DNA from: Microtetraspora niveoalba
GTDB lineage: Bacteria; Actinomycetota; Actinomycetes; Streptosporangiales; Streptosporangiaceae
Assembly: GCF_001570405.1 (NCBI RefSeq)
Contig: NZ_BBYM01000007.1
Location: 62,001 to 126,000 of the forward strand
Direction of reading: 5' to 3'
DNA length: 64,000 nt
A program made the position numbers and the translations under genes. Numbering within the stretch: the stretch's first letter is position 1; each line of letters opens with the position of its first letter. The notes beneath the pieces were generated by a model. That model was not told the origin of the DNA. It saw only the letters and a program-made list of their open reading frames with translations, and made no database searches. Shown here piece after piece: positions 3,602-64,000 of this stretch.

Positions 3602-3644
3602 GGTAATCGGCCTCAACGGAGCCTTTTGCCTGTAATAGGTGACC
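3602..3644 (+). repeat. Upstream box 1, copy A
   Basis: 43-bp element beginning GGTAATC and ending GGTGACC, with TTTGCC in the middle. It matches 4641-4683 over the same 43 bp (32 identical positions by eye). It lies 446 bp before the first secreted gene. Possible promoter or activator site; function inferred only from conservation. Confidence 0.6.
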
Positions 3645-3884
3645 ACCGTGATTTGCGCCCTTTAGCGTGAAGCGAGGGAGTACCCGATAAATGCCGCCCG
3701 TGCCTCGGGCACGGATCCGGACGGACACGCCGCGACGCGCGTGAAGGCCGGAGCGAGCCTCCGGCCGACCGTCCCGCCCTCGTCGAGAGATCCGAGCGCG
3801 CGAGGAGCTCTCGGCGAGTTGGACGACAACGCGGCGAGCACCGCCGGGCCGTGCGCGGCTAGGGCGCATTTTCCGGGGACGACC

Positions 3885-3937
3885 AGGTCACACGCCGTTT
3901 CGGCGCCTTCCCGGGAAGCCGATTCGACTGCTCCGTC
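3885..3937 (+). repeat. Upstream box 2 (conserved hairpin), copy A
   Basis: About 53 bp, close to 90 percent identical to 4714-4766. It begins AGGTC, contains the small hairpin CGCCG-TTT-CGGCG and continues through CCCGGGA, CCGATTCGAC and GCTCCGTC. It ends 110 bp before the start codon, so it is either core promoter/operator DNA or a structured part of the 5' leader. Confidence 0.65.
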
Positions 3938-4047
3938 GATCCGCGAGTGCCACCGGCCCAGCCGACCCGTTCGGCGGGCCAGGCAACACCTGCGAACACG
4001 CCCCGCCCCTGAGCCGGGCGTGAACCTCACCACACGGAGTGATTCTC

Positions 4048-4401
4048 ATGCTCAGACAAGTCCTCGCAACCGGCGCGCTCGTCGCCTCCGCCTTCGTCGT
4101 CCCGCTGGCCATGCAGGCCCAGCCCGCCAACGCCGGCGTCACCCCCTGCTCCACCGGCACGGACAGCTCGTCGTCCTCCACCAGCACGACGACGTCGTCC
4201 TCGGCCGCCTGCCACTGGCGGCGCGGCTGCAAGATCTGCCATGGCGAGGTCGTCTACTGCAAGCACCGCCGCTACCACCACCCGCGCCATCCCGGTAACG
4301 AGAACTTCAACGAGAACCGGAACGAGAACCTCAACCGGAACGAGAACATCAACCGGAACGAGAACATCAACCGGAACACCAACATCAACCGGAACGGCTG
4401 A
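4048..4401 (+). CDS. Small secreted four-Cys protein with alternating Asn tail (paralog A)
   Basis: 117 residues. Sec signal peptide ending around QPANA (residue 29), a Ser/Thr-rich linker (about 37-52), then a module C-x5-C-x2-C-x6-C containing CHWRRGCKIC, a basic His-rich patch (HRRYHHPRHP), and from about residue 83 a tail where every second residue is Asn (NENFNENRNENLNRNENI and so on, over about 33 residues). In a beta strand such a tail would show one pure Asn face, as in amyloid-like polar zippers; that is inference. ATG at 4048 is preceded by GGAG (4036-4039); a GTG nine bases earlier overlaps that site. Paralog B follows. Extracellular, no recognised family. Confidence 0.85.
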   Translation: MLRQVLATGALVASAFVVPLAMQAQPANAGVTPCSTGTDSSSSSTSTTTSSSAACHWRRGCKICHGEVVYCKHRRYHHPRHPGNENFNENRNENLNRNENINRNENINRNTNINRNG

Positions 4402-4416
4402 CGCCCACCGGTAGAA

Positions 4417-4453
4417 GCGGCCGCCCCGTGAGCGCACCTCACGGGGCGGCCGC
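4417..4453. terminator. Strong hairpin terminator after paralog A
   Basis: Perfect 16-bp stem (GCGGCCGCCCCGTGAG and its complement) with a 5-base loop, 16 bp after the stop codon. No T tract follows, as is common in actinomycetes. Confidence 0.8.
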
Positions 4454-4640
4454 CCCATGGCGTGCCCACGACGGCGGGGACGGCCTCTCCGGCCTCCAGC
4501 GGCCTCTCCGGCCCGCGGGGCCGCTTCGCCGTGCCGACCGACGTCCCCGCGCGGCATCTGAGCGTAGGAGCGCCGCTACGGCCTGACATCTGGTTGTTCG
4601 CCGCGTTCGCTGAACGGTTTCACAGTCCATCCGAACAGAC

Positions 4641-4683
4641 GGTAATCCGCCCCGTCCGAGCCCTTTGCCACTTACGGGTGACC
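4641..4683 (+). repeat. Upstream box 1, copy B
   Basis: Second copy of the 43-bp element (see 3602-3644), 203 bp before the start of paralog B. GGTAATC, TTTGCC and GGTGACC blocks are kept at the same internal spacing. Confidence 0.6.
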
Positions 4684-4713
4684 CCCCGCGAGGGGCGTCC
4701 CTACCGTTGGGAT

Positions 4714-4766
4714 AGGTCGACACGCCGTTTCGGCGTCATCCCGGGAGACCGATTCGACGCTCCGTC
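4714..4766 (+). repeat. Upstream box 2 (conserved hairpin), copy B
   Basis: Second copy of the hairpin element (see 3885-3937). Here the hairpin extends to six pairs, ACGCCG-TTT-CGGCGT. It ends 119 bp before the start codon of paralog B, nearly the same distance as in copy A. Confidence 0.65.
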
Positions 4767-4885
4767 AGTCACCACGCGCCCGTGGCAGGCCGCATCACCG
4801 GCAGGCTCAGCGGGTCACGGAGGTCCGGCCCTTGCCATGAGGGGCGCGCGATCACCAGCCAGAAGACACCAACGGAGTGATTCTC

Positions 4886-5203
4886 ATGCTCAAGAACGCA
4901 ATCGCCACCGGCGCGCTGGTGGCCTCCGCCCTCGTCATCCCCGTCACCTTCTCGGCGCTTCCCGCGAACGCGGCCGCGGCGTCCCAGGGGGTGGGCTCCG
5001 AATCGACGACCACGAACGCCGCCGACTGCTGGTGGCGGGAGGGCTGCAAGTACTGCAAGCAGCACGGGGAGACGCGCCGCGTCACCTGCGAGCGCAGCCG
5101 CCGCGGCCACGAGAGTCGCGAGCACTGGGAGAGCCGCGACCACCGCGGCCACGAGTACCGGAACCACGAGTACCGGAACCACGAGCAGTACCGTCGCCAC
5201 TAG
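4886..5203 (+). CDS. Small secreted four-Cys protein with His-rich tail (paralog B)
   Basis: 105 residues. The signal peptide (MLKNAIATGALVASALVIP to about PANA) is nearly the same as that of paralog A, and the leader ACGGAGTGATTCTCATGCTC is shared almost base for base. The cysteine module is C-x5-C-x2-C-x10-C, containing DCWWREGCKYC, so W-R-x-G-C-K-x-C is common to both proteins. The tail differs: HESREHWESRDH followed by repeats of HEYRN, giving a His/Arg/Glu-rich low-complexity end that might bind metal. ATG at 4886 follows GGAG by eight bases. Extracellular; no recognised family. Confidence 0.85.
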   Translation: MLKNAIATGALVASALVIPVTFSALPANAAAASQGVGSESTTTNAADCWWREGCKYCKQHGETRRVTCERSRRGHESREHWESRDHRGHEYRNHEYRNHEQYRRH

Positions 5204-5330: not shown

Positions 5331-5528
5331 TCAGCCGCCGCTCTTGCGGCGGAAGGTGCGCCGGCCGCCGGCCGGGCCGTGGGCGGCGTGGACCTTCGAC
5401 GGGTCCTTGCCGGTGCCCGAGGCGTTCCGCTCGGCCTGCGCGCGCTTCTTGCGCTCCAGGGCCTCGCGGAACTTCCGCTTCATCTCGTCGTCTTCCGGCG
5501 CGTCGTGCTCCGGTTCGGCGGCAGCCAT
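5331..5528 (-). CDS. DUF5302 family protein
   Basis: 65 residues, highly charged, with the family layout [18 protein letters not shown], then [13 protein letters not shown] and a C-terminal [13 protein letters not shown]5302 proteins are small, conserved across actinobacteria and uncharacterised; the basic C-terminus suggests nucleic-acid or ribosome contact, which is only inference. ATG start at 5528. It lies between the secreted paralogs (convergent) and two tRNA genes on the same strand 150 bp upstream. Confidence 0.85.
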
Positions 5529-62240: not shown

Positions 62241-63401
62241 ATGGTCGGTCACCCGGAACGGCAGAGCCATCGACGGATCTCCCCCCTCGATCCCGGCGCG
62301 TCCCGAACCTCTCCGGGGGCGCCCGGGCCCCCTCCCGAGCCCCCTGCCGCGCCCTCACCCGGGCCGCCGGGAACGCGCGCCGAGCAGGAGGCGCGCGGCA
62401 CGCCGGGCGAGGGGCCCACGCCGCCGTCGCACCTGCAGCTCGAGGTGACCTCGGCGTGCAACCTGCGCTGCCGGATGTGCCTCGTCCGCTACCGGCCGCC
62501 GGTGAACCGGATCCGGGGAGCGATGCCGCTGGAGCTCTTCCACCGGCTCCTGGACGCCCTGCCGGGGCTGCGCCTGCTCACCCTCCAGGGGCTGGGCGAG
62601 CCGCTGCTGTCGCCCCACCTGCTGCCGATGATCGCCGAGGCCAAGCGGCGGGGCGTCAGGACGGGGTTCACGACCAACGCGACCCTGCTCACCCCCGAAC
62701 GCTCCGCGCGGCTCGTCGAGCTCGGCGTCGACTGGGTGCGCGTCTCCCTCGACGGCGCCACGGCCGAGACCTACGAGGGGATCCGCGACGGAGGCAGCTT
62801 CGCCGCGGTCGCGGCCAACATCCGGAGCCTGTGGGCCGCCAAGAAGGCCGCCGGCTCCCCGCTGCCGTGGACCCGGGTCGTCTTCGTCGCCATGCGGCGC
62901 AACATGGAGGAGCTGGCGGACACCGTACGGCTGCTCGCGGGCTGGGGCGTGGACGAGATCCGGGTGCAGAACCTCGCGCACACCTTCGAGGACGCGGGCG
63001 GCGCGTACGCGGGGATCCGCGACTTCACCGAGGCGGAGTCGTTGTGGCGGGGCGGGGACCGGATCCGCTCGGCGCGCGCCTTCGCCGAGGCCGCCGCCGT
63101 GGCGGAGGAGTACGGCGTACGGCTCAGGCTCCCCGACCTGTCCGGACGGCGCTCGCCCCGGGCGCCGGGGGAGCCCGGGTGCGGCTGGCCTTGGGACGCG
63201 GTCTACGTCACCAGCGAGGGCGTGGTGCAGCCGTGCTGCATGGTCATGGGAGACGACCGGGCCACGCTCGGCGACCTGCGGAGCCAGTCCTTCGCGGAGA
63301 TCTGGGAGGGGGCGGCCTACCGCGAGTTCCGCCGCCGCCTCATGGGCGACGACCCGCCGGAGGTCTGCCGCGGGTGCGCCCTCTACCGGGGCACCTTCTG
63401 A
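62241..63401 (+). CDS. Radical SAM/SPASM-domain protein
   Basis: 386 residues. A Pro/Gly-rich disordered N-terminus (about 1-60) precedes the radical SAM core: LQLEVTSACNLRCRMCLVRY with the C-x3-C-x2-C cluster, LLTLQGLGEPLLSPHLLPMI, TGFTTNATLLTPE, and VRVSLDGATAETYEGIR. The C-terminal SPASM region has GVVQPCCMVMGDDRATLGDL and VCRGCALYRG for extra iron-sulfur clusters. Such enzymes modify peptides, sugars or alcohols. ATG at 62241 has GGAGG six bases upstream. Its end overlaps the glycosyltransferase start, so the two are coupled and may act on the same glycan or glycolipid. Confidence 0.88.
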   Translation: MVGHPERQSHRRISPLDPGASRTSPGAPGPPPEPPAAPSPGPPGTRAEQEARGTPGEGPTPPSHLQLEVTSACNLRCRMCLVRYRPPVNRIRGAMPLELFHRLLDALPGLRLLTLQGLGEPLLSPHLLPMIAEAKRRGVRTGFTTNATLLTPERSARLVELGVDWVRVSLDGATAETYEGIRDGGSFAAVAANIRSLWAAKKAAGSPLPWTRVVFVAMRRNMEELADTVRLLAGWGVDEIRVQNLAHTFEDAGGAYAGIRDFTEAESLWRGGDRIRSARAFAEAAAVAEEYGVRLRLPDLSGRRSPRAPGEPGCGWPWDAVYVTSEGVVQPCCMVMGDDRATLGDLRSQSFAEIWEGAAYREFRRRLMGDDPPEVCRGCALYRGTF

Positions 63402-64000
63402 CCGGCTCGACAGCGACCGGCTCGACACCGACCGGCTCGACACCGACCGGCTCGACAGCGACCGGCTCGACAGCGACCGGCTCGACAGCGACCGGCTCGA
63501 GAGCGACCGGCTCGACGCCTCCCCGCCTGCTGGCGTTCCGCGCGCTCAACCTGGGCGATCTGCTGGTGGCCGTGCCGGCGCTGCGCGGGCTGCGGCGGCG
63601 CTATCCCGGTCACCGCCTGACGCTCGCCGTCCCCGCAGCCCTCGCCCCGGTGGCCCGGCTGACCGGCGTCGTGGACGAGGTCGTCCCGCACCGCGGCCCG
63701 CACCCGCCGCCCGTGCGGGAGCCGGACGTGGCCGTGGATCTGTGCGGGGTGCTGCCGGACAGCGTCCGGGCCCTGCTCGCGATCCGGCCGCGCCGCCTGG
63801 TGGCCTTCTCCTGCCCCGAGGCCGGGCACCCGGACGGGCCTCCCGTACGGGATGTGGAGCACGAGACGGCCCGGTGGTGCCGGCTGGTGCGGTCGGACGG
63901 GGCGGAGGCCGACGAGGGCGATCTGCTGCTGGCCCCTCCGTCCGTCCCGAGCCCCTGTCCCGGGGCGGCGGTCGTGCATCCGGGCGCCGCCTACGGCAGC
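63374..64000 (+). CDS. Glycosyltransferase family 9 with N-terminal pentapeptide repeats (partial)
   Basis: The right end of the window cuts the gene. GTG at 63374, with GGAGG ten bases upstream (63359-63363), is the only start codon in frame before the domain. It overlaps the radical SAM gene by 28 bp. Residues about 10-49 are eight copies of a pentapeptide TGST(A/P), encoded by the 15-bp tandem array. The GT9 (heptosyltransferase-like) domain follows: LLAFRALNLGDLLVAVPALR, LRRRYPGHRLTLAVPAALAP, VDEVVPHRG and PDVAVDLCGVLPDSVRALLA. Transfers a sugar, often a heptose, from a nucleotide donor; acceptor unknown. Confidence 0.8.
   Translation, partial: MRPLPGHLLTGSTATGSTPTGSTPTGSTATGSTATGSTATGSRATGSTPPRLLAFRALNLGDLLVAVPALRGLRRRYPGHRLTLAVPAALAPVARLTGVVDEVVPHRGPHPPPVREPDVAVDLCGVLPDSVRALLAIRPRRLVAFSCPEAGHPDGPPVRDVEHETARWCRLVRSDGAEADEGDLLLAPPSVPSPCPGAAVVHPGAAYGS
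63400..63519 (+). repeat. 15-bp tandem repeat, eight copies, in frame
   Basis: GACCGGCTCGACAGC unit with variants (last base pair of bases AG/AC/GC, and one GAGAGC copy). Eight units of exactly 15 bp start at the radical SAM stop codon and run into the glycosyltransferase coding region, keeping its frame. Confidence 0.9.

Follow-up and report, generated by a model that had tools for sequence, protein, structure and literature searches.

Two small secreted proteins at one locus

The window, i.e. the whole 64,000-nucleotide stretch of Microtetraspora niveoalba DNA analysed here (from the genome called G000 below), carries two genes for small secreted proteins on the plus strand. Gene A (4048..4401) encodes 117 amino acids and gene B (4886..5203) encodes 105. 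At the head of each gene, ACGGAGTGATTCTC stands immediately 5' of the ATG. The two signal peptides are very similar (approximately codons 1-29 in A, from a by-eye reading of the alignment), and the head alignment places a C-x-W-x-x-G-C-K-x-C module in both proteins. In A, this four-Cys module, with the conserved pattern C-x-W-x2-G-C-K-x-C...C, covers codons 55-71 (4210..4260, plus strand); in B, where it is defined by alignment and predicted strands, it covers codons 48-68 (5027..5089, plus strand). A preliminary description of this DNA had reported two open reading frames with similar signal peptides and a shared W-R-x-G-C-K-x-C module. All of these are present and, because homologues in other species carry the same heads, both reading frames are supported (A by homologues with the same head and leader, B by a paralogue and the head alignment). 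Four Cys had been counted in each protein, which is right for B (Cys48, 54, 57 and 68) but not for A, which has five (Cys34, 55, 61, 64 and 71). Four of these can be considered conserved, since Cys34 is missing from the two closest A orthologues.

Codons 84-117 of A (4297..4398, plus strand) encode the 34-residue tail NENFNENRNENLNRNENINRNENINRNTNINRNG, in which Asn fills 17 of 17 alternating positions; the opposite face, EFERELREIREIRTIRG, is a near-repeat of R, E and hydrophobic residues. When the 34 residues were shuffled 20,000 times, the longest alternating run obtained was 11. The strict Asn-X-Asn-X pattern, already recognised in the preliminary description, is also kept in another genus: tails orthologous to that of A were found at loci L010, L011 and L119, the last of which belongs to another genus, and an Asn-X tail with a four-Cys module occurs again in genome G206, from a different genus. 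The His/Arg/Glu-rich tail of B (5102..5200, plus strand) consists of HEYRN/EYRNH repeats, visible in the translation as previously proposed, and TRF detected repeat arrays in the tails of both A and B. In forced alignments, the B tail shares 46% and 57% identity with the same-locus tails of two relatives, G001 and G003. The tails of A and B are not degraded forms of one domain.

The AlphaFold models have a mean pLDDT of 52.8 for A and 56.5 for B, tails and linkers being of low confidence. For both proteins, a three-strand mini-sheet is predicted over the Cys module, with block-mean pLDDT values over residues 51-70 of 75 and 84 in A and of 83 and 78 in B (strands 48-51, 54-59 and 62-68; 64 over residues 41-50). 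No Pfam family matched A or B at E up to 1 and no NCBIfam model matched them above its cut-off (the best was TIGR02184 for B, 12.7 bits against a cut-off of 25, residues 3-23), in agreement with the initial impression that known families do not fit. Neither resource revealed a wall anchor or a binding domain in A or B, and PDB sequences contained nothing matching B at E up to 10. The curated-family scans, which covered A, B, the L119 protein and the polyQ protein of L036, gave no match for the L119 protein and only sub-cut-off matches for the L036 protein. A search for plasmid carriage of A gave no match. Elsewhere in the window, we observed a small basic, Lys/Arg-rich ORF of 65 amino acids between B and the tRNA genes (5331-5528, minus strand) and a near-perfect 15-bp tandem repeat, GACCGGCTCGACAGC (63400-63516; 7.8 copies, 96% match).

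A multigene family with a conserved leader

On the sequence evidence, A and B are two of five paralogues in G000 belonging to a lineage-specific family of small secreted proteins. A head profile (A1), made from an alignment of 22 sequences, gave five matches in this genome at E 3.6e-14 or better, the next one being at 0.033. These members are A, B and one copy each on contigs C16, C2 and C4, the C2 copy being cut by the contig end. A single-sequence search with B recovered the C16 member (1.9e-18), A (3.5e-12) and the C2 member (1.0e-10), and a search with A recovered the C4 member (2.4e-7). As the closest paralogue of B is the C16 member (69.6 bits vs. 49.5 for A), A and B are not mutual closest relatives.

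The profile search across actinobacteria found the family in a single GTDB family: in an even class-wide sample, 7 of the 394 genomes matched the heads (E up to 1e-4), all 7 from the window's GTDB family. Within the latter, head matches (E up to 0.001) were obtained in at least 86 of 341 genomes and at least 17 of 68 genera, a count that includes matches to the signal peptide alone within long ORFs; one genome had at least nine matches. A second profile, built from A-type members, matched 78 of 338 genomes. Named records, at 14 loci, come from Microtetraspora glauca, malaysiensis, fusca and sp. NBRC 16547, from Microbispora rosea and from Sphaerisporangium; according to GTDB, three of the Microtetraspora records belong to the window's own genus and malaysiensis to a neighbouring one. 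A literature search, covering listings and the beginnings of abstracts, found no description of this secreted-protein family among the entries listed, and a term search for it in PMC5431353 found nothing.

Most of the members read have in common a signal peptide, a 5' leader and the ribosome-binding region ACGGAGTGAT (4034..4043 for A and 4872..4881 for B, plus strand, from the alignment), and many also have a promoter-like motif composed of TTTGCC, GRTGAC and TANSGT. Under the strict family pattern, this motif lies at 3625..3668 for A (TTTGCC-n7-GGTGAC-n19-TAGCGT) and at 4664..4707 for B, both on the plus strand. In 6 of 10 genomes, the strict pattern, itself derived from family members, detected a total of 12 sites, every one just upstream of a member; the reversed-pattern control detected none. 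It misses members, as only 3 of 5 were found in G000 and none in 4 of the 10 genomes. In addition, about 210 bp (3669-3884 of the window) lie between the promoter-like motif and the leader core of A; this stretch is absent in G001 and G003, and similar sequence is present in two other relatives, G041 and G002.

The leader core was modelled (R1) from a 53-nt alignment. It spans 3885..3938 for A (GCCGTTTCGGC at 3894, GCTCCGT at 3930; E 5.6e-13) and 4715..4767 for B (GCCGTTTCGGC at 4724, GCTCCGT at 4759; E 6.4e-19), on the plus strand, both leaders being in the training set. R1 gave five matches in G000 at E 5.3e-12 or better, one upstream of each family gene, the next match being at 0.137. Five strong matches were also found in each of G001, G002, G003 and G041 (E 9.7e-11 or better), all 20 preceding a head match. 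Because 22 of these 25 strong leaders trained R1 and match by construction, the evidence from the model consists of the three untrained leaders and of the lack of other strong matches among those listed. Of 27 head matches in the five genomes, 25 have a strong R1 leader; the two others are L197, a G003 copy whose leader is diverged by eye, and a match on contig C47 of G041. Two weak R1 matches also occur in these genomes, on contigs C7 of G003 and C27 of G001. Among 25 weaker R1 loci elsewhere (L105-L129), 15 directly precede a short ORF whose start is signal-like and lies behind the same kind of ribosome-binding site, L117 is the member seen in L166, 8 look like chance and L113 was left unjudged. 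Several family-matched genes have no recognisable leader: among those read, 16 loci (17 records) were set aside because the leader was not recognisable, cut or diverged. As a separate observation, the upstream homology of L002 (G000 C16) and L004 (G000 C2) to their orthologues begins at about -254 and -275, near the promoter, and shared flanks were not found beyond this point within the DNA compared, as if promoter and gene had moved together.

We then considered whether the leader could be a riboswitch-like element sequestering the Shine-Dalgarno (SD) sequence. CTCCGT is invariant in 22 Microtetraspora-type leaders and complementary to ACGGAG of the ribosome-binding site (fifth base variable, A/G); RNAalifold pairs the two in these leaders with a column-shuffle z of -11.2 (100 shuffles). 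The covariation, RNAalifold and pairing tests were repeated on a wider set restricted to recognisable, complete leaders, which excluded the 16 loci (17 records) mentioned above. Between anti-SD and SD, 197 of 250 pairs were kept vs. 198.9 in shuffles (36 distinct combinations, 70 leaders); in hairpin P1, 169 of 213 were kept vs. 165.9, a value reached by 345 of 2000 shuffles. Thermodynamic pairing of the ribosome-binding site was computed for 88 of 107 records (17 without a complete leader and two without a GGAG-like site being left out). Real and shuffled leaders gave 0.73 vs. 0.74 for 20 Microtetraspora-type leaders, 0.56 vs. 0.70 for 20 of Microbispora type and 0.82 vs. 0.81 for 48 others. 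For the 50 leaders that are not of Microbispora type, RNAalifold found no consensus structure; 23 of them taken separately had a z of -1.6 (17 of 200 shuffles as good) and the other 27 had none. In Microbispora-type leaders (z -3.6), the main pairing partner of the complement is a second copy, located immediately upstream of the ribosome-binding site. In L137, L144, L150 and other leaders of this type, the ribosome-binding region is duplicated (such as CACGGAGTCGACGGAGTGAT) and RNAalifold pairs the upstream complement with the first copy. Rfam models matched only tRNAs, both in the window at gathering thresholds, where the leader had no match, and in six loci at E up to 1. As the wider covariation, consensus and pairing controls failed, the controls for covariation and pairing being no better than shuffles, we retain a conserved leader and do not claim it as an RNA switch. 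A suppression of synonymous change in the signal peptide was rejected. The pooled pS is 0.19 there vs. 0.29 and 0.54, the tail value in this comparison being inflated by the alignment of repeats, and it is ordinary since two flanking genes have a pS of 0.12-0.21.

Replacement of gene bodies at the A/B locus

The A/B locus is syntenic in five genomes, as judged from flanking genes and two adjoining tRNA genes (Cys and Gly in the four relatives). The bodies found between these conserved flanks are not the same: at A, an Asn-X body is present in G000, G003 and G041 and a polyQ body in G001 and G002. The sister species G041 and G002 share 87% identity along the 520 bp that end at A+39 (codon 13), have unalignable bodies, and match again, at 91% identity, from A+485/+494, near the end of an adenosine deaminase gene. 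Between G001 and G003, the break falls at A+87 (codon 29) and similarity resumes at A+501/+528. G001 and G002 have homologous polyQ bodies (80-81%). At B, the leaders of G001 and G003 are 96% identical and their tails 44% in a forced alignment; locally, the match ends at B+132/+135 and resumes at 78% at B+501/+360. As it resumes inside the last part of both ORFs, the change at B is internal. The bodies observed are an Asn ladder or polyQ at A, and HEYRN/YEHR, RGRLERE or WDRDHRG at B. Flank homology was absent in the DNA compared for a putative third switching locus (Arg/Glu vs. His/Phe/Gly members), which was rejected.

The tree of four flanking genes is ((G003,G001)100,(G041,G002)100,G000). 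Asn-X and polyQ bodies cut across this locus tree, so at least two changes have occurred at A. One possible, though rather unlikely, alternative to body replacement is an ancestral array of several family genes, from which species lost different ones by recombination between heads. Identity between the leader-plus-head regions of A and B is 69-76% over 216-294 bp, which might suffice for unequal exchange, but none of the five genomes keeps both an Asn-X and a polyQ gene at the locus.

An adenosine deaminase gene (PF00962; E 9e-80 and 1.6e-79) separates A and B in G041 and G002; it lies on the minus strand at 1692-2840 of L033 and 1692-2723 of L036. The starts of A and B are about 1.8 kb apart in all four relatives compared (G001 and G003 included) vs. 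0.84 kb in the window, where the interval between A and B (4402-4885) does not contain this gene. A and B are therefore adjacent in the window because the adenosine deaminase gene is missing there. The preliminary description had explained the pair by a duplication followed by tail replacement. The syntenic breakpoints bear out that tails were replaced behind a constant head. An origin by simple tandem duplication of two genes can be dismissed: A and B are part of a multigene family, are not closest paralogues and have a gene between them in relatives.

Variable tails and their possible role

Across the family, 80 stretches and 26 further loci gave 115 records, i.e. 107 different proteins. The head is usually followed by a Cys module and then by a tail that is wholly different between subfamilies. 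Asn-X, His-rich, polyQ, polyN, polyG, polyS, Arg/Glu and Lys/His classes were found, with motifs such as (N)10GGR repeats, polyG with NTNTN, KHKK, RERGRFEE and HFHEHG, along with Trp/His-rich tails and, in L015 and L109, DDWDD tails. The number of Cys is two in 72 of the 107 proteins, four in 14, zero in 11 and another number in 10; L187 and L208 have nine Cys each, in an apparently duplicated module. Low complexity is all that the tails have in common, and in some members the tail is slight or missing, so one common physical role is not forced.

Tentatively, and still with some doubt, we favour a small secreted family under similar control, in which a Cys module held in the wall or matrix carries exchangeable tails as a surface coat. 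The same kind of leader and signal peptide in most copies, and the promoter-like motif in many, would provide promoter activity and Sec export, and similar control would lead to joint expression of the copies. Behind the signal peptide, the basic, aromatic Cys module most likely attaches the protein to the cell wall or to a surface matrix. The tail may then determine the physical properties of the layer, whether as a ladder of stacked Asn, a fibre rich in Q/N, a brush of flexible Gly or Ser, or a His-rich or charged coat binding metal or water. Recombination between the conserved head and a point beyond the stop codon would swap bodies and tails, so that each species would express a different assortment under similar control. 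The swapped repetitive tails would build or tune the outer surface. The role would be comparable to that of chaplins and rodlins, a developmentally used surface coat, without detected homology. A stronger form of this proposal, which we hold to be unlikely, is a surface wardrobe with exchangeable parts: a set of loci, all driven by a single kind of promoter, leader and signal peptide, would trade protein bodies as cassettes between strains or species. Unrelated, idiomorph-like alleles would then occur at one locus, and the polymer coat would mark or tune the hyphae and spores of each strain.

Only slightly less plausible than this stronger form, and quite unlikely, is a functional amyloid, i.e. 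fibrils formed on aerial hyphae by the tails, mainly those of Asn-X, polyN and polyQ type, for which the Cys module would be a cap or anchor. The full Asn alternation of the A tail with its regular opposite face, and the 20 of 107 unique proteins with at least 60% Q+N in a 30-residue window, are consistent with this, but numerous members have compositions dominated by Gly, Arg/Glu, His or Lys that do not resemble amyloids; the pLDDT of the A tail, under 50, argues neither for nor against it. More doubtful still are secreted antimicrobial or competition peptides, whose Trp-rich basic four-Cys module would be active, the tail aiding spread or binding and conflict driving allele replacement. Among the 25 loci shown by the A-type search, 14 encode four-Cys proteins of 75-94 amino acids with a short or absent tail. 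The four-Cys modules shown there abound in Trp, Arg and Lys, and a locus with alternative bodies recalls arms-race loci. Nevertheless, the two-Cys and Cys-less members, many of them homopolymer-tailed, look unlike antimicrobials.

We consider it very improbable that the tails are selectively near-neutral, low-complexity sequence generated by slippage of repeats downstream of a secreted Cys peptide. Tail length does change freely, sister species differ, the tail of gene A has a dN/dS of 0.50-0.83 in three pairs, and gene A uses AAC for each of its 18 Asn. Homopolymer runs, however, have mixed synonymous codons: runs of at least seven residues contain 258 AAC and 68 AAT (326 Asn), 391 CAG and 186 CAA (577 Gln), and 343 GGC, 159 GGT, 79 GGA and 9 GGG for Gly, and S runs use four codons, suggesting conservation of the residue rather than of a DNA repeat. 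Moreover, alternating Asn is kept between genera and heads are kept in several copies per genome. Metal or phosphate handling by His-rich, Trp/His-rich and Asp-rich tails binding metals at the surface is just as improbable, for although 11 of 107 members have at least 35% His in a 30-residue window and W-type members are rich in Trp and His, the same head is shared by polyQ, polyN, polyG and polyS members, which are not expected to bind metals.

The favoured reading, a surface coat with exchangeable tails, can be compared with known systems. Chaplins assemble as amyloid at the air-water interface of aerial hyphae. Like those of Streptomyces (PF03777, ChpA-C), the proteins described here are small, secreted, multicopy and found in aerial-growing actinobacteria, and would assemble at the surface. 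Unlike them, A and B have no Pfam match at E up to 1, PF03777 included, and in their family the head is constant while the tail changes; the likeness initially suggested is one of logic, with no homology detected. G000 itself has four chaplin matches; the two with listed positions lie together on contig C51 (7980-8486), at a distance from the family loci, and the genome may therefore possess another coat. At least two of the C51 matches sit in one open frame of 544 amino acids, unlike the chaplins of Streptomyces, which are short. In fungal mating-type idiomorphs, unrelated bodies occupy one locus between conserved flanks in related species. The A locus shows the same arrangement, but it is bacterial, concerns a single secreted gene, and its conserved flank takes in the gene's own 5' end. 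RiPP precursors and conotoxins combine a conserved N-terminal part with a fast-changing C-terminal part. The A/B family resembles them in this respect, with the difference that the part kept constant comprises the 5' leader, the signal peptide and, in many cases, the promoter motif, whereas a low-complexity tail varies (for leader peptides, see PMC2887384). The rodlins RdlA and RdlB are secreted surface proteins of aerial hyphae, a role proposed here for A and B; the comparison was made through Pfam and NCBIfam profiles, where neither protein had a match above cut-off. Two homologous rodlins are needed for rodlets, according to PMC5314377.

If the favoured reading is true, bacteria would here keep the regulation and export of a family near constant and swap the secreted material. 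The family would also offer, as a natural collection, polymers of polyQ, polyN, polyG, polyS, Asn-ladder and His-rich type that are probably served by one secretion route. Surface building in aerial actinomycetes other than Streptomyces thereby becomes testable, as does the evolution of repetitive proteins by replacement and not by slippage alone.
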